Positions 4,562 to 64,000 of a stretch of 64,000 nucleotides of DNA are shown here, one piece after another (positions within the stretch are counted from its first letter, which is position 1; every line of letters begins with the position of its first letter). The DNA is taken from the NCBI GenBank assembly GCA_019828595.1, contig JAHQRK010000012.1:2459915-2523914 (forward strand). The letters run 5' to 3'. Both the position numbers and the translations under genes were made by a program. Source of the stretch: Aphanomyces cochlioides. Taxonomy: Eukaryota > Oomycota > Saprolegniomycetes > Saprolegniales > Verrucalvaceae. The notes beneath the pieces were generated by a model that saw nothing but the letters and a program-made list of their open reading frames with translations, searched no databases and was not told the origin of the DNA.

Positions 4562-7500
4562 TTAGCGCATGCCGAGACGTTGTCGATGCATTTCAAAGAC
4601 TTCATGGGTTTGAACTTTCGTGAAGATGTCAGCGATCTGATCTTTCGTGCCTATGTATTGTAGGTTCACCATGTTTTCTTCCACAAGATCCCTCAAGAAG
4701 TGGAAACGCAGTCGAATATGTTTCGTGCGGCTGTGAGTCGCTGTTGCTTTTGCGACTTGCATGGCGCTTTGGTTGTCAACAAACATGTCGATCGATAAGT
4801 TGATCTTGACTTTCATTTCTTGAAGGAGCTCGTGCAACCAGATCAGGTTCTTTGCGCTTTCGGCCGCGGCAATGAACTCTACTTCGGTGGTGCTTTGGCC
4901 GACGAGACTCTGCTTTCTTGACATGTACGTGATTGCACCTTCAGCCATGATAATGGTTGACCCAGTGATAGACTTGCTGTCATGTTTGTCATTCGCAAAA
5001 TCGGCGTCGCTGTACACTTTGGGTTTCGCGCTTGCTCGCCCATTGTACATGATACCCAGCTCTCTGGTTCCTTTGAGGTATTTCAAGACGCGCTTTGCCA
5101 TTTTCCAATGACTTGCATTGTAGTCATGGTTGTGAGACGACAGGAAACGCACGGCGAAGGCTATGTCTGGCCTGGTGGCGCTGACAAGATACTGCAGTGC
5201 CCCCGTCAGGCTCCGGTATGGCAGATTGTCGTGCTTGTCGCTCACTTCCGTGTCTGCTGGTAGACCTTGTACTTGTGGCGTCGGCACAGTATCGCAGTCT
5301 TGCATGTGGAACTTCACGAGCAGCTCGTCGACGAACGTGCTTTGTGATATCTCACCGTACGTGCGCCGCGGTCTCTTTGGATTCTCATCCCAAGTAGGAA
5401 CTCGAGCTCGCCTTTGTCGGTCATCTCAAACGTGTGCGTCAGGGGTTGCCGAATGGCATGCAGAGTCTTCTTGCAACTTGTCGCGATGACAATGTCGTCG
5501 ACGTACACAGCAAGGTAAGTGATCTTCCTGCTTTCTGAGTTCACCATTACGTAGATGCATTGTTCTTTGTGGCATCGCTTGAAGCCCATTGCCTAAAGGC
5601 AGTTATTGAGTTTCTTGTTCCACTGACGCGGCGCTTGTTTAAGCCCGTATATGGACTTGTTGAGCTTGCACACCAGGTTGGTCTTCCCCTCGACTTGATA
5701 TCTCTCAGGCTGGTCCGTGTAGATGTCTTCGTCAAGATCGCCGTTCAGAAACGCTGTTTTGACGTCAAGCTGCGCTGTCTCTAAGTCGAGAGTAGCGACC
5801 AGCGCACACAACAGTCGGAGAGAGTCAAGGCGAAGTACAGGTGTGTACGTGTCCGTAAAGTCAACCCCGGCAATTTGAAGATACCCCTTTAGGCAGAGAC
5901 GTGCTTTGAAGCGCTCAAGAGATCCGTCGGCGTGGTACTTCGCTTTCCAAACCCACTTGCACTTCAGCGCTTTGCGGCCCGCCGGGAGAGGTACGAGTTC
6001 CCACACGTTGTTGGCTAGCATGGCTTGATATTCAGCGTTAGTTGCTTCGATCCATTCGCTGCGATAGGCGCTTTTGTCGACATCCTTGAAGGTTTGTGGT
6101 TCGACAGGCTTGGTGGTCACGTTGTTGACTTCATAGATCTTTGGCTTTTTGATCGTGCGGGTAGACTTCCGAGTCGCTACTCGCTTTCTGTCCTCGAGAC
6201 TGGTTTCGGCAGCTTCGGCTGCAGTCCTTGGGTGTTGGTTCCTCGGGTATTTGTTCCTCGGGTATTTGTTCCTCGGGTATTTGTTCCTCGGGTATTTGTT
6301 CCTCGTCTTCGTTGATGTTGAATCTAGCATTGTAGAGCTCGTCGTCCATGGCGAGTCTGCCCGTGGAGTCATGAGATGTAGCCGATGAACACGCATGGTA
6401 CCGCTGGGTTGGCCAAATTGGACGCGCGCTCGGCCTTTGGCACATACTAGTACATGTAAGCAAGGCACCCGAATGTTTTCAGCATGTGCAGTCTGCTAGG
6501 CTTTGCAAACAAGACTTTGTATGGTGTCCTTTGGTTCAAGAACTCTTGCGGCGTGTTGTTGTACACATGCACAACGTGATCAAGTGCATACCTCCACAGT
6601 TGTGCTGGTAGCCCACTCATTGTCATGTATACTCCGACTTTGTTGAATAGGTATTCGTTGGTCTTCTCAGCCAAGTGGTTTTCTTCGGGTATGTGTGCAT
6701 TTGTGAACTTCCTCTGGCTGTGCATGCCGCTCGAAAGCTGGCGCTTGTGTACTCGCCACCGCCGTCTGAGTATATATTGCTGATACGTGAGTCGCGTCGT
6801 CGATTGTCCAGTTCTGACGTCAGTTCGTCTAGGTGGAGAATGGCCTCATCCATGGACTTGAGCAGACGAGCGAAGATGAACCTCGACGTATGGTCAGTGA
6901 AAACGCTCGTGTATCGTTGCCCATGAATTGTCTTAGGTGTGATGGGTCCGCACAATTCTGCGCTCAAACTTTCGAGAGGCAGGGGAGCGACGAAGTGGTT
7001 TTGGTTTCTGTACGACATTCGTTTCGCTTGGCCTTGCAGGCAACCATCACACTTGCGTTCAGAGGTAGTCAAGTCTTCTTCCTTGTCGATAATGGGTTTG
7101 ATGTTCTTAGCGACTTGATCATAACTTGCATGATTGAGCTTGTTGTGCCAGCGAATCAACTTGTCGTCCGTCTTGACTGCATTGACTTGTAGTTTGGTTC
7201 ATCGTCGTCAGATCCCGATGGCGCTTTCTTGGGGAAGGCTTTCTTAAAGGCGACCTTGGAGGTACCAACTTTCTTTGGTCTCGCCCCCTTACCCCTCTTC
7301 TCGTGGTAGTTTGGATCGAAGTCGGCATGGTCTTGTGCAACGTGATCACCCTTCTTCCGGCAGATGAAGCACCATTTTCCTTCAGTGTGGTCGACGTTGC
7401 TCATGGTATTCAATCTGGTCTTCAACGCATTAATCTCATGAGTGATGTTAGCCAAGTTGCTAGTCGCTTTTGGCTTCTTGAAGTCGCGGTCCCGGTTTTG

Positions 7501-8290
7501 ATGGTACGGTCGAGTGCGCTTACGCTCCTTGCGCTTCTCTTCTTCATTCAGGAGGGCACTGATGAGTGTATTTAGGCTGATTTCTTGCGCTGGTGTCGGC
7601 TTCAGATGATTGATGAAGGCGTTGAAGTTGTCAGGACCATCGTTTGGAAGGGTAACCAGGATCCATTCAACCGTCTCGCTTTCGCTGATCTTCTTTCCCA
7701 TGTCGTTTAGGTCTCGGATGATCGCGCGGGTCTTCGTAATGTGCTTCAACATATCCATCTTGGGATCGTATTTCAGTTCACACAAGCGACGAAGCACATA
7801 AATGGTATTTGACCATTCTTTCTTCTCATAATTGTCGATTAGAGTTTGCCACATTTCTGCAGGAGTCTTGTCTTCGCGGATATATCATATCGAAGACTTC
7901 GTCCGAGAGGGAGGTTTGGTGGTAGGATCTCGCGAGATTCGCCTTGTCTGAGAACTCAGCCACTTGTTGTTGCGTAGCATTCTCATCCAAGGTGTCGCTT
8001 CCACAGATTATCCCCCAGATGTGTCGAAGCTGGCAGACGCCTTGGAACTTGGCTTTGAAGGTAGAGAAGTTCTTTCCATCGAATCTGACTTTGCGCAACA
8101 GATCCTTCGCTTCAGCTTCCGTTGTTGTTGAGGCGGATTTCGCTGCGCCCGATTGGGCTCGCATCAGTTCAATGTCTTTCTTCTGTTGATCCAGGAGCCT
8201 CTTGAGTTCTCCAAGTTCAGTTGACATTATTTCCATGGCTCCGGCTTGTTCAAGTTCGGACATGGCGGGGGAGGACGGTAGTAGTGACAT
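4562..8290 (-). pseudogene. Copia gag-pol polyprotein, multiple frame disruptions
   Basis: This encodes capsid, integrase, reverse transcriptase and RNase H for LTR retrotransposition. From the ATG at 8290, 26 bp inside the 5' LTR, gag has a coiled-coil segment (STELGELKRLLDQQKK), then the UBN2-like capsid (MWQTLIDNYEKKEWSN) and a zinc knuckle (WCFICRKKGDHVAQDH). The integrase has a pre-integrase HHCC segment (MIRWHNKLNHASYDQV, CDGCLQGQ) and a catalytic core (LCGPITPKTIHGQRY, YSDGGGEY). Reverse transcriptase shows KCKWVWKAKYHADGS, TAQLDVKTAFLNGDLDE and YVDDIVIA. RNase H contains YSDADFANDKHDSKS and ends near HEVFEMHRQRLGMR. Adjacent domains lie in different frames at about 7850, 7157, 6700, 6460, 5590 and 5315, so no single uninterrupted polyprotein exists. 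An in-frame expansion of a 15-bp unit sits between integrase and RT. Confidence 0.9.
6241..6300. repeat. 15-bp tandem repeat inside Copia pol, four units
   Basis: CCTCGGGTATTTGTT is repeated exactly four times, with partial units on either side. In the pol frame it encodes a repeating Asn-Lys-Tyr-Pro-Arg pentapeptide in the linker between integrase and reverse transcriptase. The unit length keeps the frame, so the expansion looks tolerated. Confidence 0.9.
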
Positions 8291-38002: not shown

Positions 38003-39313
38003 ATGAAGATCTACACGGCAACTGCCATTGCCTTGGCGCTGTTGGACAGCGCGGCAGCGTCAAATTCGTTCCGCGAATCTCGCTCGCTTCTTGCTGCCGA
38101 TTGCGGCAAGGACTGCTCGAAAGAAACTGGTTTGTCATGGACACTCTGCACAATGAGCCAAGCTGGGTCGTGCACTTGGCAGGGCATCTCCTCTGCCGGT
38201 GCGTATGTCTACAACGGCGCTGCAGGTCTTGTCGGTGCCGGTTCACCTCCACCACCCCCACCTGCCAATTCAACAGACTCCACAGGTGACGACCACCCCC
38301 CACCTCCTCCCCAGGGCAACAACACTAACTCCTCGGACATCCAACGCCCCCCATTCCCCCCCCCAGGCAACAATACCAACTCCACGGACGACAAACGCCC
38401 CCCATTCCCTCCTCCAGGAAACTCAACGAATGGAACCAACCCTGGTAATCCTCAGGGCGGCCCACCTCAAGGTCAAGGTCCACCAGGGGGACAACAAGGA
38501 AATCAAACACAAGGCCCACCGCAGGGTCAACAAGGACAAGGCCAGCAAGGACAAGGTCAACAAGGACAAGGCCAACAACGAGGTCAACAGGGACAAGGCC
38601 AGCAACAAGGACAACAGGGACAAGGTCAACAGGGACAAGGTCAACAGGGACAAGGCCAGGGTCAACAAGGCCAGGGTCAACAAGGCCAGGGTCAACAAGG
38701 ACAAGGTCAACAGGGACAAGGCCAACAACAAGGCCAACAACAAGGCCAGGGTCAGCAAGGCCAGCAACAAGGCCAGGGTCAACAAGGCCAACAACAAGGC
38801 CAGGGACAACAAGGCCAGGGTCAACAAGGACAAGGTCAACAGGGGCAAGGTCAACAGGGACAAGGCCAACAACAAGGCCAACAACAAGGCCAACAACAAG
38901 GCCAACAAGGCCAACAACAAGGCCAGGGTCAACAAGGACAAGGTCAACAGGGACAAGGTCAACAGGGACAAGGCCAACAACAAGGCCAGCAACAAGGCCA
39001 GGGTCAACAAGGCCAGGGTCAACAAGGACAAGGTCAACAAGGACAAGGTCAACAGGGACAAGGCCAACAACAAGGCCAGGGTCAACAAGGCCAGGGTCAA
39101 CAAGGCCAGGGTCAACAAGGACAAGGTCAACAGGGACAAGGCCAACAACAAGGCCAGCAACAAGGCCAACAACAAGGCCAACAACAAGGCCAGCAACAAG
39201 GCCAACAACAAGGCCAACAACAAGGCCAGCAACAAGGCCAACAACAAGGCCAACAACAAGGCCAGGGTCAACAAGGAGGCAAGCCTGGAGGCCAGCCAAA
39301 TGGTCCACGTTAA
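38003..39313 (+). CDS. Secreted Pro-rich and Gln/Gly-repeat protein
   Basis: A 436-codon single exon. The signal peptide is MKIYTATAIALALLDSAAA. A short cysteine-containing segment follows (CGKDCSKETGLSWTLC and QAGSCTWQGISSAGAYVY). A Pro-rich region comes next (PPPPPPANSTDSTGDDHP) with two repeats containing N-x-T/S glycosylation sites. The remainder (from about residue 155) is almost entirely Gly-Gln and Gln-Gly-Gln repeats to near the end, which reads GGKPGGQPNGPR. It resembles cell-wall or surface proteins with low-complexity tails. Function is unknown. The gene lies 188 bp from the HOP2 start (divergent). The repeat tract also has no stops in two other frames, so length and codon usage alone are poor evidence there. 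The signal peptide and Cys segment support this frame. Confidence 0.75.
   Translation: MKIYTATAIALALLDSAAASNSFRESRSLLAADCGKDCSKETGLSWTLCTMSQAGSCTWQGISSAGAYVYNGAAGLVGAGSPPPPPPANSTDSTGDDHPPPPPQGNNTNSSDIQRPPFPPPGNNTNSTDDKRPPFPPPGNSTNGTNPGNPQGGPPQGQGPPGGQQGNQTQGPPQGQQGQGQQGQGQQGQGQQRGQQGQGQQQGQQGQGQQGQGQQGQGQGQQGQGQQGQGQQGQGQQGQGQQQGQQQGQGQQGQQQGQGQQGQQQGQGQQGQGQQGQGQQGQGQQGQGQQQGQQQGQQQGQQGQQQGQGQQGQGQQGQGQQGQGQQQGQQQGQGQQGQGQQGQGQQGQGQQGQGQQQGQGQQGQGQQGQGQQGQGQQGQGQQQGQQQGQQQGQQQGQQQGQQQGQQQGQQQGQQQGQQQGQGQQGGKPGGQPNGPR
38470..39285. repeat. GGTCAACAAGGACAAGGCCA-type tandem repeat of the Gln/Gly tract
   Basis: Short units (GGTCAACAA, GGACAA, GGCCAACAA, GGCCAG) are arranged in an irregular array of about 800 bp. 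Larger blocks repeat as well, such as runs of GGCCAACAACAA in the final 150 bp. Such arrays expand and contract readily and are likely to differ between strains. Confidence 0.9.
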
Positions 39314-42319: not shown

Positions 42320-44370
42320 GGTCATTGTTCCCATTGTCGACTAAACCCCACACGAACGGGTTAATGAAAAATCATTGTATAAATTTTCAGAGTCAATTTA
42401 CCCATTGTACACTTTCAAGAATTTCCGATGCCCACGTTGTGTTGTCTTGTTGTCGGCGAAGGACGACCTTTCCCCGTCAGCTTCGAAGATGATGACATGG
42501 TGGGAACTCTCAAGCAAAAGATCAAGGAAGTGAATGACTATCCATTCCTTGCGAGGGACTTGGATCTGTACAGTGTCAACGGCCTGCTGCAGACTGGGGA
42601 GGAACAGTTTCAATTCAATCAAGAACGAATCGACATGACAAAGTGCTCATTGGAGGTCTTCGTTGGTTCAACAACGAAATTGGTTGCGGCAGATCGAATG
42701 GTTGAATACCCCGAACTGAAAGACTTGTCCAAAGGGAAAATCCACGTTTTGGTAGTTGTCCCGTCTGGCGCTGTGCTTCAATCGAATTCTGAAGGTAGCG
42801 ATAGTCCGCTGGTTCAGCAATCTTCCGGTGTGCCTATGCACAAGAAACCAAGAATTGACAGTCCATTGACAGTCATTGGTACCACTACATCTTGTTTCAG
42901 CCCTTGCGATATTGCTTTCTACAACAATATTCTTGGTGCGAAGAACCAGAATGGATGGTTGCACTTTTCTGACAGTATTCCTGCATCCAAAGCAACAGCA
43001 AACAAAATACTCATTCGGAGTAGTTTTGAAACAATCGCATCAAAAATCCGCGACTTGGGCAACGAAAAGTACTTCAAGGCAATTGTCACAGGAACACCGG
43101 GTATTGGCAAGTCTTATTTTCTTATCTACCTATTGTGGACCTTGCTCATTGAAGGAAAAAAAGTGATTTTCCTGTATCATCCAGACGTTGTCTACTTTGA
43201 TGGTTGCGGGGGCGTTACTATGTCAAACCTACGTGATATGCCTCAGTCTAATGAGCGGTTTTGGCGCGATGAAAATTTATGGTGTCTGTTTGATGCCAAA
43301 GCAAAAACCCAAGAAAATCTCAATCTTCTTCCTTACTCCAGAATCAAAATTGTCTTATCAACGTCTCCTCGTCGAGACATCATCAATGATTTCCAGAAAC
43401 CTCCCGAACCTTACACTTATTTCATGTCGTTGTGGACAGAAGCAGAACTGCAACTGATTGCACCATCATTTCCCGATGTTTGTGAATGGAAAACTCGATT
43501 CGTTCTCCTTGGTGGTATCCCCCGAAGTGTTTTGGAAAAGACATCTCGAAAAGCATCAAAAATGCTCGATGCAGCATGCGTTGAGTGTGATCTCAATGAC
43601 TGTATGAAGGTTGTTGGTTGCGATTCAACAATCGCACCAGCCTCCAAGATAATGCATACTTTGATTCATATCAATTCCATTGAACCTTACACTTCATCGG
43701 AAGTGCAGTTCGCTTCTCAAGCTGCTTTAGACAAAATTGTCCGTCACAATATGATCATCGCCAAGAGATTTATGCAGGAACTTTTAAGTTCATGCGATAG
43801 GCACCCTTTTACAGCAGCTCTGTGTGGACATATTTTTGAAGTATATGCCATCGAATTGTTGGAAAAAGGAGGCACGTTTGAGTGTCGTCAACTTCTGCAC
43901 AAAAACAACCAAAAACAACCAACGCAAATACAGCTTCACATTCCAAGCTCTACGAAAATCGTGGCTGACCAAGTTTTAATTACTCAACTGCCCAACCAAC
44001 TTTATGTTCCAAAATCGAAGAATTTTACAGCCATCGATGCTTGGATTCCTCAAATGGGAGGGTTTCAAATGACTGTTAGCTTGAATCCTGTCATACGAGG
44101 TGATGACAACAGCATGTTTGGCATGCTTGGCAATAGAATGTATTGGCTCCTTCCACCTTCAATTTATGGATCGTTTACCAAGAAATATCCTTTCTCCCTC
44201 GATCAGTATGCGGTACTAGTTACATATCATGAAGCTCTAATTTGATTAATCATACTAACTTCATCAAGATTTACATTGACACTTATCAGTCCCAGTCTTT
44301 GTACCTTCGACCGATCCCACGACTTTGTGTTTGGTCTTGTTAACTCATCGACTGGGTCAAACTCAACCTT
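42320..44370. repeat. Left arm of a 2-kb inverted repeat carrying a CRN gene
   Basis: It matches 49480-51532 in inverse orientation almost without change across the gene and its flanks. The outer edge is sharp at about 42320, at the shared GGTCATTGTTCCC. The inner edge fades, with divergent similarity past 44340. Confidence 0.9.
42428..44245 (+). CDS. Crinkler (CRN) protein with P-loop ATPase and nuclease-like C-terminus, copy 1
   Basis: A 605-residue single-exon protein with the crinkler layout. Residues 1-110 form the ubiquitin-like header, opening MPTLCCLVVGEGRPFPVS and containing LARDLDLYSV where LFLAK is expected; it closes with IHVLVVVP (the HVLVxxP motif). Residues 210-300 form a STAND-like P-loop ATPase: Walker A GTPGIGKS (222-229), Walker B-like LWCLFDA, sensor-like IVLSTSP, then WTEAELQLI and LLGGIPRSVL. 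The C-terminal 150 residues match the REase-like module of CRN and RHS proteins (FEVYAIELLEKGGTFECR, AIDAWIP, FQMTVSLNPVI). No classical signal peptide is obvious, as is common in saprolegnialean CRNs. Copy 2 (49606) differs by one residue (Ile/Val after VADQVL). No ATG/stop damage is visible, so both copies look functional. Role: likely a secreted or conflict-system effector; host target unknown. Confidence 0.85.
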   Translation: MPTLCCLVVGEGRPFPVSFEDDDMVGTLKQKIKEVNDYPFLARDLDLYSVNGLLQTGEEQFQFNQERIDMTKCSLEVFVGSTTKLVAADRMVEYPELKDLSKGKIHVLVVVPSGAVLQSNSEGSDSPLVQQSSGVPMHKKPRIDSPLTVIGTTTSCFSPCDIAFYNNILGAKNQNGWLHFSDSIPASKATANKILIRSSFETIASKIRDLGNEKYFKAIVTGTPGIGKSYFLIYLLWTLLIEGKKVIFLYHPDVVYFDGCGGVTMSNLRDMPQSNERFWRDENLWCLFDAKAKTQENLNLLPYSRIKIVLSTSPRRDIINDFQKPPEPYTYFMSLWTEAELQLIAPSFPDVCEWKTRFVLLGGIPRSVLEKTSRKASKMLDAACVECDLNDCMKVVGCDSTIAPASKIMHTLIHINSIEPYTSSEVQFASQAALDKIVRHNMIIAKRFMQELLSSCDRHPFTAALCGHIFEVYAIELLEKGGTFECRQLLHKNNQKQPTQIQLHIPSSTKIVADQVLITQLPNQLYVPKSKNFTAIDAWIPQMGGFQMTVSLNPVIRGDDNSMFGMLGNRMYWLLPPSIYGSFTKKYPFSLDQYAVLVTYHEALI

Positions 44371-49479: not shown

Positions 49480-51532
49480 AGCTTTAAGTTTGACCTTTGT
49501 CGACGAGTTAACAAGACCAAACACAAAGTCGTGGGATCGGTCGAAGGTACAAAGACTGGGACTGATAAGTGTCAATGTAAATCTTGATGAAGTTAGTATG
49601 ATTAATCAAATTAGAGCTTCATGATATGTAACTAGTACCGCATACTGATCGAGGGAGAAAGGATATTTCTTGGTAAACGATCCATAAATTGAAGGTGGAA
49701 GGAGCCAATACATTCTATTGCCAAGCATGCCAAACATGCTGTTGTCATCACCTCGTATGACAGGATTCAAGCTAACAGTCATTTGAAACCCTCCCATTTG
49801 AGGAATCCAAGCATCGATGGCTGTAAAATTCTTCGATTTTGGAACATAAAGTTGGTTGGGCAGTTGAGTAACTAAAACTTGGTCAGCCACGATTTTCGTA
49901 GAGCTTGGAATGTGAAGCTGTATTTGCGTTGGTTGTTTTTGGTTGTTTTTGTGCAGAAGTTGACGACACTCAAACGTGCCTCCTTTTTCCAACAATTCGA
50001 TGGCATATACTTCAAAAATATGTCCACACAGAGCTGCTGTAAAAGGGTGCCTATCGCATGAACTTAAAAGTTCCTGCATAAATCTCTTGGCGATGATCAT
50101 ATTGTGACGGACAATTTTGTCTAAAGCAGCTTGAGAAGCGAACTGCACTTCCGATGAAGTGTAAGGTTCAATGGAATTGATATGAATCAAAGTATGCATT
50201 ATCTTGGAGGCTGGTGCGATTGTTGAATCGCAACCAACAACCTTCATACAGTCATTGAGATCACACTCAACGCATGCTGCATCGAGCATTTTTGATGCTT
50301 TTCGAGATGTCTTTTCCAAAACACTTCGGGGGATACCACCAAGGAGAACGAATCGAGTTTTCCATTCACAAACATCGGGAAATGATGGTGCAATCAGTTG
50401 CAGTTCTGCTTCTGTCCACAACGACATGAAATAAGTGTAAGGTTCGGGAGGTTTCTGGAAATCATTGATGATGTCTCGACGAGGAGACGTTGATAAGACA
50501 ATTTTGATTCTGGAGTAAGGAAGAAGATTGAGATTTTCTTGGGTTTTTGCTTTGGCATCAAACAGACACCATAAATTTTCATCGCGCCAAAACCGCTCAT
50601 TAGACTGAGGCATATCACGTAGGTTTGACATAGTAACGCCCCCGCAACCATCAAAGTAGACAACGTCTGGATGATACAGGAAAATCACTTTTTTTCCTTC
50701 AATGAGCAAGGTCCACAATAGGTAGATAAGAAAATAAGACTTGCCAATACCCGGTGTTCCTGTGACAATTGCCTTGAAGTACTTTTCGTTGCCCAAGTCG
50801 CGGATTTTTGATGCGATTGTTTCAAAACTACTCCGAATGAGTATTTTGTTTGCTGTTGCTTTGGATGCAGGAATACTGTCAGAAAAGTGCAACCATCCAT
50901 TCTGGTTCTTCGCACCAAGAATATTGTTGTAGAAAGCAATATCGCAAGGGCTGAAACAAGATGTAGTGGTACCAATGACTGTCAATGGACTGTCAATTCT
51001 TGGTTTCTTGTGCATAGGCACACCGGAAGATTGCTGAACCAGCGGACTATCGCTACCTTCAGAATTCGATTGAAGCACAGCGCCAGACGGGACAACTACC
51101 AAAACGTGGATTTTCCCTTTGGACAAGTCTTTCAGTTCGGGGTATTCAACCATTCGATCTGCCGCAACCAATTTCGTTGTTGAACCAACGAAGACCTCCA
51201 ATGAGCACTTTGTCATGTCGATTCGTTCTTGATTGAATTGAAACTGTTCCTCCCCAGTCTGCAGCAGGCCGTTGACACTGTACAGATCCAAGTCCCTCGC
51301 AAGGAATGGATAGTCATTCACTTCCTTGATCTTTTGCTTGAGAGTTCCCACCATGTCATCATCTTCGAAGCTGACGGGGAAAGGTCGTCCTTCGCCGACA
51401 ACAAGACAACACAACGTGGGCATCGGAAATTCTTGAAAGTGTACAATGGGTAAATTGACTCTGAAAATTTATACAATGATTTTTCATTAACCCGTTCGTG
51501 TGGGGTTTAGTCGACAATGGGAACAATGACCC
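49480..51532. repeat. Right arm of the 2-kb inverted repeat carrying a CRN gene
   Basis: It is the inverse of 42320-44370, with the same sharp outer edge (51532, near GGGAACAATGACC). The centre of symmetry is near 46925. Confidence 0.9.
49606..51423 (-). CDS. Crinkler (CRN) protein with P-loop ATPase and nuclease-like C-terminus, copy 2
   Basis: The second copy of the 605-residue protein. Header, ATPase and C-terminal modules are the same as in the copy at 42428-44245. The only residue change I saw is Ile to Val in the segment VADQVLVTQLPN. The ATG at 51423 and the stop at 49606 are intact. The near-identity of coding and flanking DNA, in opposite orientation, indicates a recent duplication or ongoing gene conversion. 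If both are expressed, transcripts will be hard to tell apart. Confidence 0.85.
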   Translation of the reverse strand: MPTLCCLVVGEGRPFPVSFEDDDMVGTLKQKIKEVNDYPFLARDLDLYSVNGLLQTGEEQFQFNQERIDMTKCSLEVFVGSTTKLVAADRMVEYPELKDLSKGKIHVLVVVPSGAVLQSNSEGSDSPLVQQSSGVPMHKKPRIDSPLTVIGTTTSCFSPCDIAFYNNILGAKNQNGWLHFSDSIPASKATANKILIRSSFETIASKIRDLGNEKYFKAIVTGTPGIGKSYFLIYLLWTLLIEGKKVIFLYHPDVVYFDGCGGVTMSNLRDMPQSNERFWRDENLWCLFDAKAKTQENLNLLPYSRIKIVLSTSPRRDIINDFQKPPEPYTYFMSLWTEAELQLIAPSFPDVCEWKTRFVLLGGIPRSVLEKTSRKASKMLDAACVECDLNDCMKVVGCDSTIAPASKIMHTLIHINSIEPYTSSEVQFASQAALDKIVRHNMIIAKRFMQELLSSCDRHPFTAALCGHIFEVYAIELLEKGGTFECRQLLHKNNQKQPTQIQLHIPSSTKIVADQVLVTQLPNQLYVPKSKNFTAIDAWIPQMGGFQMTVSLNPVIRGDDNSMFGMLGNRMYWLLPPSIYGSFTKKYPFSLDQYAVLVTYHEALI

Positions 51533-53381: not shown

Positions 53382-54547
53382 ATGATTTTCCTCGATCCTC
53401 ACTTTCATGAGTTTTTCTCAACTATTTTCGGCTCGTCATGTACACAACTTGGGCTAAAGTTGAAAGATTTGCTGATTGTATATGGCGCAATTGTATCTGA
53501 ACGCTATCTATCCCGACGACTGCCTGTTCCAAAGCGAGAATACCGTATAACTTTCTTCTGCTATCGCTTTAGACAAGAAGCTCGCATGGATCAAAGGAGC
53601 TTCCTTCAAATAGTTGATCTCATACGCAGTCACACAATTTTACCAATTTCTCAACCCTACAACAAGCCCCCGTGCAAGAGCAACTTCTTGTCTTTTTGGC
53701 AAAACTGGGTCGTTATGGCAATGGAAGCTCAGTTGGAATTTTGTCTCGTCATTTTGGTATCAGTGAAGGCTCAGTCCTTTTGTATTGTCAAAGATGCCTT
53801 ACAGCCATCATGGATTTAGAGCCTCGGGTCGTATTTTGGCCTGGTGTGGACGAGATGTTCTTGATTTCAAGTTGAAATGAAAAAGAACATGGTTTCGAAG
53901 GCTGTGTTGGATATGTAGATGGAACGCTATTTCCAGTGTATACCCGACCATCTCTTCATGGAGAAGATTATTACAGCCGCAAAGGATAGTATGGTATGGC
54001 TGGTATGGTTATTTGGGATGACTTGAAGCGCATTCGCTACCTGGATCTTGGTTGGCCTGTTCATGACATGCGCGTTTGGTCCAACAGTAAGATCGCAACC
54101 ATGCCTTGGCTCTACTTTAGTCACCTGCAGTTTTTACTAGCTGACTCTGGCTACATGCTTTGTGATTATTTATTGCCATCATACAAACGCACACGAGGCT
54201 CACAGCTGTCTCAAGAGCAATTAAACTTCAATACACGACTTGCCCAATGCCGCAGTGTGAACGAGCATTTCATTGGTCTCCTCAAGGGTCGCTTTCAGTC
54301 GCTTCGTGGGATGCGAATGGATATTTCAAAGAAATCCGCTGCAAAAACGATGATTATGTACATCAGATGTGCTTCGATTCTTCACAACTTGCTCCTTGAT
54401 ATGATCGACCCGAGTGACGATTGGGATTTTGAAATCCAAGATTACGATGAAACTAATGATCGCGTTGAAAACGAGGAGTCATCAAATCCCGGCTACAGCT
54501 GCACAATAGACCGCCGTGAGTACCATACAAATAAGTTCTCGATCTAA
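53382..54547 (+). pseudogene. PIF/Harbinger transposase (HARBI1-like, DDE_Tnp_4), frameshifted
   Basis: A cut-and-paste transposase. The N-terminal part has ITFFCYRFRQEARMDQRS and LIRSHTILPISQPYNK. In another frame follow LGRYGNGSSVGILSRHFG and ISEGSVLLYCQRCLTAI, the usual helix-turn-helix region. The catalytic core has GCVGYVDGTLFPVYTRPS (first Asp), then a broken KG..YGMAGMVIWDDL region. LADSGYMLCDYLLPSYK (second Asp) and RSVNEHFIGLLKGRFQSL (catalytic Glu) follow. The C-terminal part is ASILHNLLLDMIDPSDD. Shifts near 53670 and a stop at about 53873 and 53986 break the gene. It is convergent with a SANT-like partner. Confidence 0.8.
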
Positions 54548-57437: not shown

Positions 57438-58936
57438 GTGATGGTGAGGAAAGAACATGTTAATCCAGATCTTTCATTTCACATTGGTAGTGTAGTCTCC
57501 ATGCCCAAAAAGACATCTAGCAAGTTATATGACTGTTATTGGACAGCAGGAGTCACATCTTGGATCATTTCGCTCTGTGTCCGACGCGCTTGGAGTTTCA
57601 CTCTAGGACCAAAAATTTCATTTAGACTTTCAAAGCGAGAACATTGCTACACTGCTTTCATCAAATGAAAGACTGTAGCCTGTAGGAAGACGAAATGATG
57701 GAGAGGGGGCCAGCTAACGTTTCACAACAACAGGAGCAGCAGAGCAACATTCGATCGACAAATAATTGCACAAGCAATACGTGTTTATCGATTCGTACAT
57801 TGAATTACTGAAACTTCAAACTATTCATGAAGGGATCCTTGCTTTCATTGCAAGACCACGTTTGTTGTGCTCCGTTCACCAAAATGCCTGAGCAAAACGG
57901 CATGCTTGACAAGCACCAAAATCAGAGATTTTTGTCCCTCGTTACTGATGGATGGACGGACCCAAACAAAAATCATGCGATTGAGTTTTTGATTGTGGCA
58001 CCAAGGATCCGACCAATTTTCTGGTCATCAGTTAGAATAAATGATGAAGCTTACGATTCAATCGAAATGTCAAAGCATCTAAATAATGTTGAAGACGTGT
58101 CTGGCGAGGGAAAAATCTGTGGGATTGTCACCGACAATGCCTCCGTGACGATATGAGCTTGTCGATTTCTTCAGGAATCCAAGTCATCGATTTTGCATCA
58201 TGGCTGTACAGCCCATGCGACAAACTTGATCATCGGAGCTCTTTTTGAAACAAGCTCCAGCAAGTTCGAGAAATACTGCGTGATCCAGTGTTTTCGGATC
58301 AATTAGCACAAGTTTTGCACCTCGTCGATCCCATCACTAAGTTCATGGCCAAGTTGGAGGGAGATGGCAGCTATGGATCCGTGGAGTACTAGGAGTTTAA
58401 GTCTATGTTAGAGCACGTCGTGTATGTCTCCGATGGCAATAAGAGCAGCATTCAAGAGATAGTTTTGAATGTTATTCAGAGTCGCGTGAGCATTTTCAAC
58501 TCAACAGTTTGCTTATGTTCTTCCCTCTCGATTCTGAAAAATCACTCAACGGTTTTTGCTTAATAACAAGCGTCACGACATTGATGCTGCGCAAAGAAAT
58601 TGCAGTGTCAGTTGGTTTCTTAGGCCTCATGTTGATAACCTTGAGCAAAGAGCTTGACACATTCATATCCGAAAAAGATCCATGGTCCACGGCTAAATTA
58701 ATGAAGAATGCAAAACGAAGTTCAACTAATTGTTGGATCTCAAGGGACTACGCACAGTTTTCACTCTTGTCTCAAAGAATGTTATGCATCTCGACATCTT
58801 CTGCATCGAATTACGATCGTTGAGTATTCGTGGGTTCCTTCATTGCAAGCGCGACAACAGACTTGGTCCTTCAAAAAAATTGAAATATATCTACTACAAT
58901 AAAGGTGACAAGAATCCTGGAAAGAAAGATCTTTAA
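57438..58936 (+). pseudogene. Decayed hAT-type transposase
   Basis: A hAT (DUF659-type) core is visible at 57827-58260: RFLSLVTDGWTDPNKNHAI, VRINDEAYDSIEMSKHLN, GKICGIVTDNASVTI (containing the catalytic-Asp-type TDNA), then after a TGA SKSSILHHGCTAHATNL and IIGALFETSSS. Further fragments (58509-58823) continue in other frames. Stops occur at 58156 and 58390, and frames change often. It cannot encode an active transposase. Termini were not found. Confidence 0.55.
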
Positions 58937-59488
58937 AAAATCGTAATTTTGTCGAGAGAAAGGGTGCACCACCAAGGGGAAACGACGTTGATTGCGGCGA
59001 TGTTTAAATCAGCTGGGATTCAGATAATAAATCTGAGGTAGAAGACGAACCTGAGCTTGAAAACGAGTGCACAACTGTGAACATGGCAGCAGCTCGTGTG
59101 TTCGATTTCGCGGGAGAAGGGCAACTTGATCCAAAACGCCATGAACCCGCCAAGCTCATCAAACACTTGACGCCGAACTGTGGTATTAAGCATATTGACA
59201 AACGACCGTCATGCCTCTCGTCGTTTTTCCATAAGTTCAGAAAGAAAAAAATGCATAGGACTATATTTAGCCCTTGTTGATATCACCAATTCTATGATCC
59301 TTCTTACAAAGCGCCAATGTCTTCACCCCACCTCTATCGAGACTGAGAATCTACATTTTCAACATTGTGGAATAGTGTCTTCTTGTCGAGTGGCTAGAAT
59401 TGGACTTTGCTAGATCCACCACATGCGTAGGGCAGCAAATTATCAACCCTTTTTAAGCTGTACAGTATATTGTAGAAAATGACTTTGG

Positions 59489-59744
59489 TTTGGGGGTAAT
59501 CAGGGAGAGGCGACGGGACCACGCGAGCGAAGCGAGCTTTGTCACAAAGGGGTGAATTAAAAATTAACGCTACAACTACGGAGCGAAGCGACCACGCGCT
59601 TTAGCGCGTCACGCCCGAAGGGCGTCCGGAGGGTCTGGGAGGCGGAGCCTCCCAGGGCTCGTTTTAATTGGTTGTAGGCACTTGTAATCTAATTTCATTG
59701 GTCCTTTCGTTTGCCTTCTTCAGTGTGAGTTATGTCGCTGATTG
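59489..59744 (-). repeat. Penelope-element pseudo-LTR copy 1 (truncated)
   Basis: Starts TTTGGGGGTAATCAGGGAGA and ends GTTATGTCGCTGATTG on the plus strand. It is nearly identical to the first 256 nt of copies at 59745 and 63212. It carries the same set of hairpins. It stops exactly where copy 2 begins, so the two are in tandem. Confidence 0.88.
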
Positions 59745-60183
59745 GGGGTTTGGGGGTAAGCAGGGAGAGGCGACGGGACCACGCGAGCGAAGCGAGCTTT
59801 GTCACAAAGGGGTGAATTAAAAATTAACGCTACAACTACGGAGCGAAGCGACCACGCGCTTTAGCGCGTCACGCCCGAAGGGCGTCCGGAGGGTCTGGGA
59901 GGCGGAGCCTCCCAGGGCTCGTTTTAATTGGTTGTAGGCACTTGTAATCTAATTTCATTGGTCCTTTCGTTTGCCTTCTTCAGTGTGAGTTATGTCGCTG
60001 ATTGTGCAAGCATGAAGTGACTGAGGGGATCAGTTAGTCAGTTCAGAAGCTTGCCAGCTTTATCCGGATATCCGGATAAGGGGGATTTGGGGGCCCCGGG
60101 GGGATTTTCGGGGGCCCCTGGGGGGATTTCCATGGGGGAAGTTCCTTGGGGAGGAAGTTCCATGGAAGTTTGGGGTTTAGGGG
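59745..60183 (-). repeat. Penelope-element pseudo-LTR copy 2 (full)
   Basis: About 440 nt, shared with 63212-63645. It contains a series of hairpins: CTTTG-TCA-CAAAG, ACGCGC-TTTA-GCGCGT, ACGCCC-GAA-GGGCGT, and CTGGGAGGC-GGA-GCCTCCCAG. It also contains a 20-nt perfect palindrome at 60060-60079. A G-rich tail (TTTGGGGTTTAGGGG...) leads into the reverse transcriptase's 3' end. Confidence 0.88.
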
Positions 60184-60217
60184 TTTCGGGGTTGGGGGTT
60201 TCGGGGGTTGGTGGTTT

Positions 60218-60267
60218 CACCCCGACACCTGTACTAGTTGTCGAGTAGACTAGCAGGTGTCGGGGTG
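60218..60267. repeat. Hairpin at the reverse-transcriptase stop codon
   Basis: CACCCCGACACCTG (60218-60231) and CAGGTGTCGGGGTG (60254-60267) are perfect 14-nt complements. The loop holds the TAG/stop region of the reverse transcriptase frame (60234-60236). In the RNA this would be a stable stem at the end of the coding region, possibly recognised by the reverse transcriptase. Confidence 0.75.
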
Positions 60268-62210
60268 GTGTCTAGTTTGAGTCGAGATGGACTAAGTTTA
60301 GACTTTAAGGTTGGTGGTTTGAGATAGCATATTGCTATGCGATCTACCCCGATTTGTCGTAGACCTTCTTTATATGAATCAAAGTATAATAGTCTCTTCA
60401 ATTCGTGAGAAGAAGGCCCGTTTGGATCATACGGAACTTTATAGTATATGACTTTCTCATGTGCTTTTGGTTTCGTGACTGCGTCAAGTGCCTGACGAAA
60501 CAGTCGTAAGAGAAGTTCCTTTCGGTAGCCTCTATACATAAGGCGAGTCAAAAGCTTGTTAATAAAGTCTTTAAAGTCACTATCGCGAGGGTTTTGTTTG
60601 CGATATTTCTTTACAAGTCCGTATAGGAGTCCTTTGAGTACACCAGGAGGATGTGCACTTGTTGCAGGGATGTATAAATACAGGTTAAGAGCCTTTTGAT
60701 GGGTTCTATGTGTGTACTTTGATCCGTCTTTGATCACCCATAAATCCAGGAAGGGGATAGTGTTTGAATCCAGTGTATGGGTGAAACTTAGCTTCGATTC
60801 TCGTCGGAATAGTGCAAAGAGGTGATTTGCAAGAAACCGATTGGTCGAGAAATTACGAACGATGAAGAATCCATCGTCAATGTATCGAGTGTAGTACTTC
60901 AGTTGGGAAGTAAACATGGGAAGTAGTACTGTTTCCTCAAAATAAGCTAGATACAGTGAAGCGTACGTGGGTGCAACGGGAGTTCCCATGGCTGTACCAT
61001 TTATTTGAAGCCATGTTGTATCGCCGAATGTGAAATAGTTGGACGTGAGAAGTAACTGCAGTCCATTTACAATGGCGTCACACCATGGATCGTCTCTTAC
61101 AATGTACTGTATGATATGTATTGCTCGATCTGTAGGGATGTTTGTATACAGAGAGGTTACATCGTACGTGACAAGCATATCATCATCATCCGCATCCAAC
61201 GTCGAAATGACATCGATAAAGGAGTCGGAATCTCTGAGATATGATTGTGTTTGCAAGAGGTATGGTTTCAGTTTGAAGTCCAACCACTTAGACAAGCCTT
61301 CAAATATAGTGTATGTGTTGGACACTATAGGCCTTAGTTGAAGGGTAGGCTTGTGGACTTTAGCCAAAGCATAGAATTTATTGATATCCTTAAATTCCAG
61401 TTCATGTTGGATGATTTTTGTGTCTTTCCAATCATGTCGATGACTGTAGTCGTCGCGAATCGTTTGGTAGAAGCGTCTGACGCGCGTGCGTAACAAACGA
61501 ACGACTGCATTGAGTGGTGATAGGGATCTACTGTATGTTGTAGTGTCTCGTAAGTGTGTGAGACACCACTGGATGTATTGTTCTCTGGTCATAATAGCTG
61601 GACCAAGATTTTTATCCGTGGATAATACATGTAGATTGGACGTTCGAATTAGTCTAAGGAGAGCTTTGTGTTCACGGTTCAAGTTGGACTTATTTCGTGA
61701 AGGTAGCACGATAGATCTAAGAGCTAATCGAGTTGTGTCTAAAGCCTCTTCCAGTATGCGGGACGCTGGAGGTGGCTGAAAAGAAGCGTTCCGAACGTAG
61801 ACCGGAGATGGTTTCCATTCGCGTTTCCTCTTATTAGACGAATTGGCAAGAGTTTCTGTCGCATGCATATTTTTTGGACCGGTGTCGGTCACTCGCGGGA
61901 CAAGATGCATATTTTTTCTAGAGTTAGCATCTGACCTTTCGAAAAGATATTTTAGTCGAATGGTTCGTTCAAAGTAATCCATATGTTCCCCCACATCAAT
62001 GGGTGTGATGTGACGTGGGGTGGGACAGAATTTCAGGCCAAGGCCAAGTAAACGTTGTAAAGCAGCAGGGACCATCGTTTCCGATGGTGTCAGGTCATGG
62101 TAGGCAAGGTTGTAGGGTTCCAAGTCGACAGCACCGACATAGCGACACGCAAATATATTAACTGCATTACGTATCGTCGACGCTGAAGGGTCAATCGCAT
62201 TGTTGACCAA
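60234..62210 (-). CDS. Penelope-like reverse transcriptase, no GIY-YIG endonuclease
   Basis: The 658-codon frame encodes an RNA-directed DNA polymerase. The N-terminal region contains GLGLKFCPTPRHITPI, the usual Penelope opening, and STDKNLGPAIMTREQYIQW. Reverse transcriptase motifs are FYALAKVHKPTLQLRPIVS (about 279-297), LVTYDVTSLYTNIPTDRAI (motif A, Asp350), INGTAMGTPVAPTYASLYLA (motif B, 403-422), YTRYIDDGFFIV (motif C, 440-451) and FTHTLDSNTIPFLDLWVIK (motif D/E, 476-494). Then the Penelope-type SAHPPGVLKGLLYGLVKKY (518-536) and a basic helical tail. The protein ends TPASLLDN with no GIY-YIG domain. The first in-frame ATG lies about 45 codons in; the frame opens further upstream, overlapping the preceding frame at position -1, which suggests a frameshift fusion. 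Confidence 0.87.
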   Translation of the reverse strand: MVNNAIDPSASTIRNAVNIFACRYVGAVDLEPYNLAYHDLTPSETMVPAALQRLLGLGLKFCPTPRHITPIDVGEHMDYFERTIRLKYLFERSDANSRKNMHLVPRVTDTGPKNMHATETLANSSNKRKREWKPSPVYVRNASFQPPPASRILEEALDTTRLALRSIVLPSRNKSNLNREHKALLRLIRTSNLHVLSTDKNLGPAIMTREQYIQWCLTHLRDTTTYSRSLSPLNAVVRLLRTRVRRFYQTIRDDYSHRHDWKDTKIIQHELEFKDINKFYALAKVHKPTLQLRPIVSNTYTIFEGLSKWLDFKLKPYLLQTQSYLRDSDSFIDVISTLDADDDDMLVTYDVTSLYTNIPTDRAIHIIQYIVRDDPWCDAIVNGLQLLLTSNYFTFGDTTWLQINGTAMGTPVAPTYASLYLAYFEETVLLPMFTSQLKYYTRYIDDGFFIVRNFSTNRFLANHLFALFRRESKLSFTHTLDSNTIPFLDLWVIKDGSKYTHRTHQKALNLYLYIPATSAHPPGVLKGLLYGLVKKYRKQNPRDSDFKDFINKLLTRLMYRGYRKELLLRLFRQALDAVTKPKAHEKVIYYKVPYDPNGPSSHELKRLLYFDSYKEGLRQIGVDRIAICYLKPPTLKSKLSPSRLKLDTTPTPASLLDN

Positions 62211-62212
62211 GA

Positions 62213-63190
62213 CTAGTTGTCTTTCTTGGCGTGTTTCTTCTGGCTCGGTTGAGCCGGCTGTTTTTTCTTGGGTGCGCCGCCTGCTGCGCCTTTCGGCGTT
62301 TCGTTGCGTTTCTTTGGCTTGCCGTTGCTTCCGCCTTGCGGCGGACCTCGGGCTTTTCCTCCACCTTCGTTTCGGGGAGTTGGCGTCTTTCCATTCTTCC
62401 CAATCGGTTTGCCAGGCCGATTGGGCGGGTCGTTTAAAGAGCGTCGATCAACTTTGTCCTTTAACGCAGAACGTAACAAGTTTACTTCTTTACGTAAAGC
62501 GCTAACATTCTTGGAAATTTCGCGTTTGACTAGTTGTCCCACGAGGATGTCGTTGGGAGTGTCAACTTCCATGGCTTCGGCGGCGGCTCGGGCGGCGGCA
62601 ACTTCGGCTTTCTTCATTTCGCGAGCTTGGCTTTCGAGGACGTGCTTGTAGCAAGCGTTGTTGAGCGCATCATTTAAAAAGGACACAGAAAGGGAAAGAT
62701 CTTGTTGAAAATTTTGTTTTATTAAATTGATATCTAGCCCTCCAGCGGCCAGAACCCCAGGCCTCCCCGGGTTGGCGTTCGCGGCAGCGCTGTCGAGGGA
62801 TGAGCTACAAGATTCAAAATACCTTTTGAGTTGGTCCACATAGGACGCACGCATTTGTGGCAGGGTGGCTTCAAGGGCGGCGAGCTCGGCTCGAGCGGAT
62901 GCCTTGATTGTTGCGTGGAGGGCGGCTTCGTTGGCGGCGAGTTGGCTCGCAAACTGAGTCTTGAGTGCGGTGGCCTGGGCTGGGTTCACGGCTTCCAGCA
63001 TGGCAGATGTTTTCAGGTCCATCTTGGTGGCGATGGATCTTGGCGCACGGGCGTCGAGGCGGGCGATGGCGTTTCACTTGGCTTCGATTCGACGCAGGAG
63101 GGCAGAGAACTCTCGGACGCAGTTGGTCACGAGGTTGACGGCTTGGGGCGGCGGGCTGCGAGCCTGGGCGGTTGCTACAGGCGAGTCCAT
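62213..63190 (-). pseudogene. ORF1 (gag-like, coiled coil and basic tail) of the Penelope element, interrupted by one TGA
   Basis: It starts at an ATG at 63190 (MDSPVATAQARSPPPQAV), runs to RRIEAK, and meets a TGA at about 63074-63076. It then continues NAIARLDARAPRSIATK and MDLKTSAMLEAVNPAQAT without further breaks to the TAG at 62213. The middle part is Ala/Glu-rich helix likely to form a coiled coil (ANEAALHATIKASARAEL). It then has a QNFQQDLSLSVSFLNDAL and EVNLLRSALKDKVDRRSL region. The last 60 residues are Gly/Pro/Lys-rich (GKPKKRNETPKGAAGGAP), typical of a nucleic-acid-binding tail. This may be the RNA-binding companion of the reverse transcriptase. If the element is active, the TGA must be a mutation, an error or read through. 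An alternative start is 63022, after the stop. Confidence 0.6.
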
Positions 63191-63211
63191 CCTTAGGCGG
63201 GTCGGTCGGGA

Positions 63212-63645
63212 CGGGTTTGGGGGTAAGCAGGGAGAGGCGACGGGACCACGCGAGCGAAGCGAGCTTTGTCACAAAGGGGTGAATTAAAAATTAACGCTAC
63301 AACTACGGAGCGAAGCGACCACGCGCTTTAGCGCGTCACGCCCGAAGGGCGTACGGAGGGTCTGGGAGGCGGAGCCTCCCAGGGCTCGTTTTAATTGGTT
63401 GTAGGCACTTGTAATCTAATTTCATTGGTCCTTTCGTTTGCCTTCTTCAGTGTGAGTTATGTCGCTGATTGTGCAAGCATGAAGTGACTGAGGGGATCAG
63501 TTAGTCAGTTCAGAAGCTTGCCAGCTTTATCCGGATATCCGGATAAGGGGGATTTGGGGGCCCCGGGGGGATTTTCGGGGGCCCCTGGGGGGATTTCCAT
63601 GGGGGAAGTTCCTTGGGGAGGAAGTTCCATGGAAGTTTGGGGTTT
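63212..63645 (-). repeat. Penelope-element pseudo-LTR copy 3 (5' end side)
   Basis: Same content as 59745-60183, with one clear difference (GGGCGTACGG for GGGCGTCCGG). The right side runs into the terminal G-rich repeat through TTTGGGGTTTAGGGGTTTTG. It should contain the element's promoter because it lies upstream of ORF1. Confidence 0.88.
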
Positions 63646-64000
63646 AGGGGTTTTGGGGGTTGGGGGTTTGGGGGTTTGGGGGTTTGGGGGTTTGGGGGTT
63701 TGGGGGTTTGGGGGTTTGGGGGTTTGGGGGTTTGGGGGTTTGGGGGTTTGGGGGTTGGGGGGGGTTTGGGGGTTTGGGGGTTTGGGGGTTTGGGGGTTTG
63801 GGGGTTTGGGGGTTTGGGGGTTTGGGGGTTTGGGGGTTTGGGGGTTTGGGGTTTGGGGGTTTGGGGGTTTGGGGGTTTGGGGGTTTGGGGGTTTGGGGGT
63901 TTGGGGGTTTGGGGGTTTGGGGGTTTGGGGGTTTGGGGTTTGGGGTTTGGGGGTTTGGGGGTTTGGGGGTTTGGGGGTTTGGGGGTTTGGGGGTTTGGGG
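63636..64000 (+). repeat. Tandem (TTTGGGGG)n array, telomere-like, running off the window
   Basis: About 45 units of TTTGGGGG with occasional shorter ones (TTTGGGG). It is G-rich on the plus strand and the chromosome end would be to the right. It continues past the window end. The oomycete telomere described in Phytophthora is TTTAGGG, so this is either a lineage-specific telomeric or subtelomeric repeat, or a satellite derived from the element's own G-rich tail. Interleaved TTTAGGGG and TTTCGGGG units occur in the tail of the pseudo-LTRs. Confidence 0.85.

Follow-up and report, generated by a model that had tools for sequence, protein, structure and literature searches.

The right end of contig C4 of Aphanomyces cochlioides carries a Penelope-like element (PLE), judged from its sequence to be without a detectable endonuclease domain, and elements of the same family directly adjoin the terminal (TTTGGGGG)n array at 29 of 32 array-capped contig ends in this genome. 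We consider it very probable that the element is added at chromosome ends by reverse transcription primed on nearly telomere-less 3' ends, and that these ends are then re-capped by telomerase. The terminal location, the polarity, the lack of a detected endonuclease domain, the truncations with shared bases and the in-register telomeric stubs are direct observations. Priming from a chromosomal 3' end is likely, given this anatomy.

Insertions at the end of contig C4

The window analysed is a 64,000-nt stretch (C4:2459915-2523914), the last base of which, 64000, is also the last base of the contig (2,523,914 bases, 2.52 Mb). C4 terminates inside (TTTGGGGG)n, as the first-pass annotation of this DNA had anticipated; TRF places the array at 63635-64000, close to the limits given in Table 1.

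Table 1. Features of the terminal region of the window, listed from the inside outward
Feature	Position	Strand	Remarks
Telomere stub, TTTGG TTTGGGGG	59484-59496	+	Between chromosomal DNA and insertion 1; read directly
Insertion 1, 248-nt 3'-terminal pLTR fragment, 5'-truncated	59497-59744	-	BLAST to element, 99.6%; tandem repeat within window
Second telomere stub, GGGGTTTGGGGG, 12 nt	59745-59756	+	Read directly
3' pLTR of insertion 2	59757-60217	-	Element comparison; G-rich tandem repeats
RT ORF	60234-62210	-	658 aa, counted from first TTG
ORF1, 269 aa	62213-63022	-	Open reading frame
TTTGGGGG octamer built into element	63216-63223	+	Between body and 5' pLTR
5' pLTR of insertion 2	63224-63646	-	Element comparison
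Terminal telomere array, (TTTGGGGG)n	63647-64000	+	354 nt by script; reaches contig end

The order of events can be read from the inside outward. Insertion 1 was added on the inner stub and truncated, and it is followed by the 12-nt stub and then by insertion 2, which is full-length (59757-63646) and consists of the 3' pLTR, the reverse transcriptase (RT), ORF1, the octamer and the 5' pLTR, beyond which the array begins. The pLTRs (pseudo-LTRs) are 461-nt direct repeats that flank the ORFs on both sides, as is characteristic of PLEs. The first-pass annotation had taken the tandem pseudo-LTR copies as a sign of repeated additions to the same end. This is borne out for the innermost piece, which is an independent and older insertion, but the other two are the pLTRs of insertion 2 itself. 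Its description of the polarity was accurate, in that the 5' side of the element faces the array and the 3' side lies inward. Six copies, distributed over five contigs (C1, C3 twice, C4, C28 and C45), have exactly the same junction between the body and the 5' pLTR (GGGACGGGTTTGGGGGTAAGC), which is read as part of the element rather than as a further independent addition; because of this identity the pLTR-body-pLTR unit is probably mobile as one. Within the 3' pLTR, at about 60161-60236 (reference positions 405-480), there is a degenerate telomere-like stretch, perhaps the fossil of an older tandem insertion.

The open frame of the RT extends over 60237-62447 (737 codons) and is in the -1 frame relative to ORF1. 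Its sequence contains what we take to be RT motifs A (TYDVTSLYTNIP), B (GTAMGTPVAP) and C (RYIDD), all three of which, as the annotation had claimed, are retained and can be aligned over 38 proteins. The motifs DKNLG, SLYTNIP, MGTP and RYIDD, presumably typical of PLE-type RTs, are conserved across the 38 homologues. The claim that a GIY-YIG domain is missing likewise stood: neither the RT ORF nor ORF1 upstream of it gave a match at E<=1, and none was found among the 120 homologues listed of 657. Elsewhere in the genome there are 13 GIY-YIG matches, none of them at an element-bearing end; these lie in chromosome interiors, most within open frames of about 100-230 codons. The fold predicted for the RT appears closest to telomerase, which accounts for all of the best 13 structural matches, and in the model this likeness includes the stretch that precedes the RT core.

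ORF1 is predicted, with low confidence, to be helical with a basic tail, and a divergent relative is annotated in Aphanomyces cochlioides (AC1031_010053). ORF1 of the window differs from a protein of A. euteiches at one residue of 269. The arginase encoded in the window is 97% identical to that of A. euteiches, 84% to that of A. stellatus and 79% to that of A. astaci, identities that support an oomycete host of this genus. The near-identity of ORF1, set against 97% for arginase, could reflect either recent horizontal spread or strong constraint.

The remainder of the window contains several unrelated features. An inverted repeat (42320-44352 and 49499-51531) has arms of 2,033 nt that are 100% complementary, and each arm holds a 605-aa ORF with a Crinkler N-terminal domain; an additional Crinkler ORF lies at 317-1111 on the minus strand. 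A 436-aa ORF at 38003-39313, with a signal-peptide-like start and composed mostly of Gln/Gly repeats, had no match in Pfam. Transposon remnants at 4562-7854, 53996-54547 and 57827-58156 include a copia-type gag (7156-7854), pol-like ORFs, DDE_Tnp_4 and DUF659.

The telomere array and the distribution of the element

The genome surveyed comprises 76.2 Mb in 94 contigs, and 123 of its 188 contig ends were examined. At 32 of these (TTTGGGGG)n is outermost, with the 3' end of the G-strand pointing outward; for one of them, C14 right, reading stopped 334 bases short of the tip. Both ends are capped on three contigs (C4, C45 and C67). Of the 1425 T-run/G-run units in the arrays at the remaining 31 capped ends, 1195 are exact copies of TTTGGGGG. 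Many units in the arrays at C26 right and C18 right are variants, TTTGGGTG and TTTGGTGG among them. For 30 terminal arrays the full length could be measured; it ranges from 226 to 459 nt, with most between 290 and 390 nt. A search of the whole genome with a four-unit array gave 1053 matches, of which 989 fall inside the retrieved contig-end sequence and the other 64 outside it. The motif TTTAGGG has been proposed as the oomycete telomere unit (PMC11139960, in the portion accessible), and three tandem copies of it occur nowhere in the genome. Among the papers listed we found no report of TTTGGGGG or its complement CCCCCAAA as a telomere unit, as far as titles and the opening lines of abstracts reveal.

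If the array were an internal satellite or an artefact of assembly, the similar length of most terminal arrays might be explained, since an assembler could impose such uniformity. However, the arrays occupy contig ends and have their G-strand pointing outward, both ends are capped on three contigs, nearly all of the four-unit matches fall in the retrieved ends, and the arrays begin at many different truncation points in the element, with shared bases. A satellite or artefact is therefore extremely improbable, and we conclude that the (TTTGGGGG)n array is the telomere.

The direct contact between element and telomere was established from adjacency at 27 of the 29 ends and from pLTR coordinates at C78 left and C26 right. 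All 40 matches to the RT protein are within about 16 kb of an array-bearing contig end, and in 39 of them the 5' side is toward the tip. The 3'-terminal 24-mer, with up to 3 mismatches allowed, gave 47 matches, every one of them about 16 kb or less from a contig end and oriented with its 5' side toward the tip; a reversed-pattern control gave 0. These 47 are spread over 28 contigs, on 27 of which a telomeric end is seen, the exception being C86. The repeat counts (40 RT, 47 3'-end and 50 pLTR matches) are lower bounds, and single matches should not be counted as separate events, since their number is raised by tandem pieces and by recombination. Copies of the family are mostly near-identical. 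The first-pass annotation had asked whether other copies share this position and polarity beside the array, and with few exceptions they do.

A few copies depart from this pattern. The sole inverted RT piece among the 40 is C56:6040-7410. At C56 left this inverted piece and a neighbouring direct copy end at the same element position (2318), an arrangement that resembles a fold-back duplication. A single copy was seen that is not near an array-capped end: on C86, a 31-kb contig, a pLTR copy (1778-2180) lies 2 kb from a non-telomeric end.

Three capped ends have no adjacent element. At C8 left the element is about 4.9-5.3 kb inward of the array, and at C34 left and C6 right no element was found. 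At C8 left and C34 left the sequence adjoining the array is unique in the genome, and therefore capping does not need the element. At C6 right, the 225 bases inward of the telomere recur, with 99% identity, at C3:15653-15879, so that this healed end may also exist in an uncapped form. On C34, two stretches match the telomerase RNA-binding domain above the cut-off; one matched span is interrupted by a stop, and the gene probably has introns. Open pieces nearby show RVT_1 similarity and contain motifs A, B' and C, and for one such piece all 9 PDB matches at E<=0.001 are to telomerase chains. Going by these similarities, pieces of a telomerase gene are present.

The confinement of the copies to contig ends might have arisen if insertion took place at breaks anywhere and only terminal copies survived selection, and internal double-strand breaks have also been proposed as targets of endonuclease-deficient PLEs (PMC3846280, in the part available). 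However, none of the 40 RT, 47 3'-end and 50 pLTR matches, counts that are lower bounds, is at an interior site, while other transposon remnants do persist in the window away from the tip. Interior copies with normal target duplications were what the first-pass annotation had named as evidence against a telomeric element. In addition, the in-register TTTGGGGG at the 3' junctions, described below, points to telomeric primers. We regard insertion at breaks anywhere as quite improbable.

Junctions of the element with telomeric DNA

The 3' ends present in the retrieved sequence, 32 of the 47, could be read, and these have 27 distinct flanks. Of the 27 inner flanks, 25 end in an exact TTTGGGGG immediately before the element and the other 2 in TTTGGAGG. 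In those 25 flanks the exact telomere tract is 8-21 nt long, and longer degenerate runs of T and G only, of 44 and 45 nt, occur at 2 of the 27 junctions. These stubs, with at most 21 exact nucleotides, may be compared with the 226-459 nt of the terminal arrays. No 3' end was read on a full telomere, and therefore insertion seems to occur on very short or just-healed ends. The fixed register of the 3' junctions suggests that the RNA of the element itself ends in the telomere complement. Where the inner flank is itself element sequence, seven junctions have 2-6 nt in common with the repeat; an eighth, with 0 nt, is the fixed internal junction, where the reference has no further base.

At the outer side, the junction between element and cap could be placed at 21 of the 32 capped ends, representing 16 distinct element positions; among the remaining ends 2 lack a clear phase and 9 were not mappable. 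The 13 distinct junctions outside the telomere-like stretch have 2-6 nt common to element and repeat, with a mean of 4.1. Random junctions share a mean of 0.81 nt, and not one of 2000 simulated sets reached the observed mean. Shared bases are what template alignment by telomerase would leave, although end joining could leave them too.

We propose the following cycle. A presumed telomere-complementary CCCCCAAA tail of the RNA would pair either with a G-rich stub or, where an end has broken, with a few G/T bases there, and the RT would copy the RNA from this chromosome-end primer. The antisense cDNA would then extend the G-strand, so that the 5' end of the element comes outward. At the outer end, telomerase would align on the 2-6 bases that match and add an array. 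Subsequent loss of the cap and erosion would expose the element, and repetition of the cycle would give rise to tandem truncated copies.

Could the family have spread mainly by recombination between chromosome ends, through subtelomere exchange or break-induced replication, and only rarely by retrotransposition? Several observations fit this idea. Five cap points, of which three lie outside the telomere-like stretch and two within it, each occur at two ends, the bases at C6 right are also found on C3, and interstitial arrays are followed outward by element pieces that lack a 3' pLTR. The latter arrays measure about 350 nt at C3 left and about 330 nt at C24 right, and the pattern is as telomere-telomere recombination would leave it. 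The inverted C56 piece, the C86 copy, the interstitial arrays and the shared cap points indicate that recombination also acts. But recombination would carry flanks along, yet 27 distinct flanks, at 32 junctions, meet the same 3' end in the same register. It is thus unlikely that recombination is the main route, and exchange between ends probably adds to end-primed insertion without explaining the picture.

The in-register octamers at the 3' ends of the element, together with the predicted likeness of its RT to telomerase, raise the question of whether this enzyme makes the whole array, rendering telomerase unnecessary. In that case one would not expect telomerase-gene pieces with an RNA-binding domain and RT motifs, nor the capping of unique DNA at C8 and C34, and the terminal arrays exceed the stubs about tenfold in length. 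We consider this very improbable and retain re-capping by telomerase. A further idea, which we put forward tentatively and think doubtful, is that the element constitutes a second, telomerase-like healing system, in which a built-in CCCCCAAA tail would dock in register on ends that are broken or critically short, so that in this oomycete a mobile element rebuilds most ends and telomerase only finishes them.

Relation to other telomeric retroelements

The first-pass annotation had raised the prospect of a telomere-associated retroelement in an oomycete, and the location at array-bearing ends, the adjacency at 29 of 32, the polarity and the lack of a detected endonuclease domain all support this. 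Gladyshev and Arkhipova are said to have reported, in 2007, Coprina and other endonuclease-deficient PLEs from fungi and protists. In the available part of PMC3846280, telomeric elements of this kind are recorded from animals, fungi, protists and plants, and the end-priming mechanism is stated for them. The element described here shares with the Athena and Coprina types its telomeric location with the 5' end outward, the telomere repeats at its truncated 5' end and the short telomere stretch at its 3' end. Athena of bdelloid rotifers likewise has an RT without endonuclease and lies at chromosome ends (PMC3846280, PMC5537684, as excerpted); its short 3' telomere stretch and its 5' truncation followed by telomere repeats are also as found here. 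Insertion on very short or just-healed ends has been argued for Athena as well (PMC5537684, in the text accessible). The host kingdom and the telomere unit differ from those of Athena, and here one family adjoins 29 of 32 telomeres; the two are likened by their features. The likeness to Coprina and other endonuclease-deficient PLEs, with protist members mentioned, is one of description, the stated class and mechanism being the same (PMC3846280, in part).

In the accounts accessible to us, the HeT-A, TART and TAHRE elements of Drosophila are also added repeatedly at chromosome ends. Their polarity, with the 5' end outward, is like that of the present element. They are, in the same accounts, non-LTR elements in an organism that is an exception to telomerase, whereas here telomere repeats persist at 32 ends and telomerase-gene pieces remain. 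With the telomerase reverse transcriptase (TERT) the element shares a predicted fold, TERT providing the closest solved structures to the RT model, and possibly an RNA end complementary to the telomere. It differs in that it encodes its own mobile template, and the host has separate TERT pieces.

The kind of element is therefore already known. New, to our knowledge, are three points: the element occupies almost all of the telomeres seen, the telomere unit in this genus is TTTGGGGG, and the stubs and junction matches have been counted. In titles and the first lines of abstracts, a body of literature that largely excludes subscription papers, no Penelope-type case in an oomycete with nearly all the observed telomeres resolved was found.

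Endonuclease-lacking PLEs are a leading model for the way in which the RT of a retroelement could have become telomerase, according to the accessible parts of PMC7658794 and PMC5537684. With one family and 32 sequenced telomeres, what appears to be a full cycle of stub, insertion, erosion and re-capping can be followed in an oomycete, and end-priming becomes directly testable. The telomeres of the Aphanomyces cochlioides genome, their unit being different from the one proposed, would escape a search for tandem TTTAGGG.
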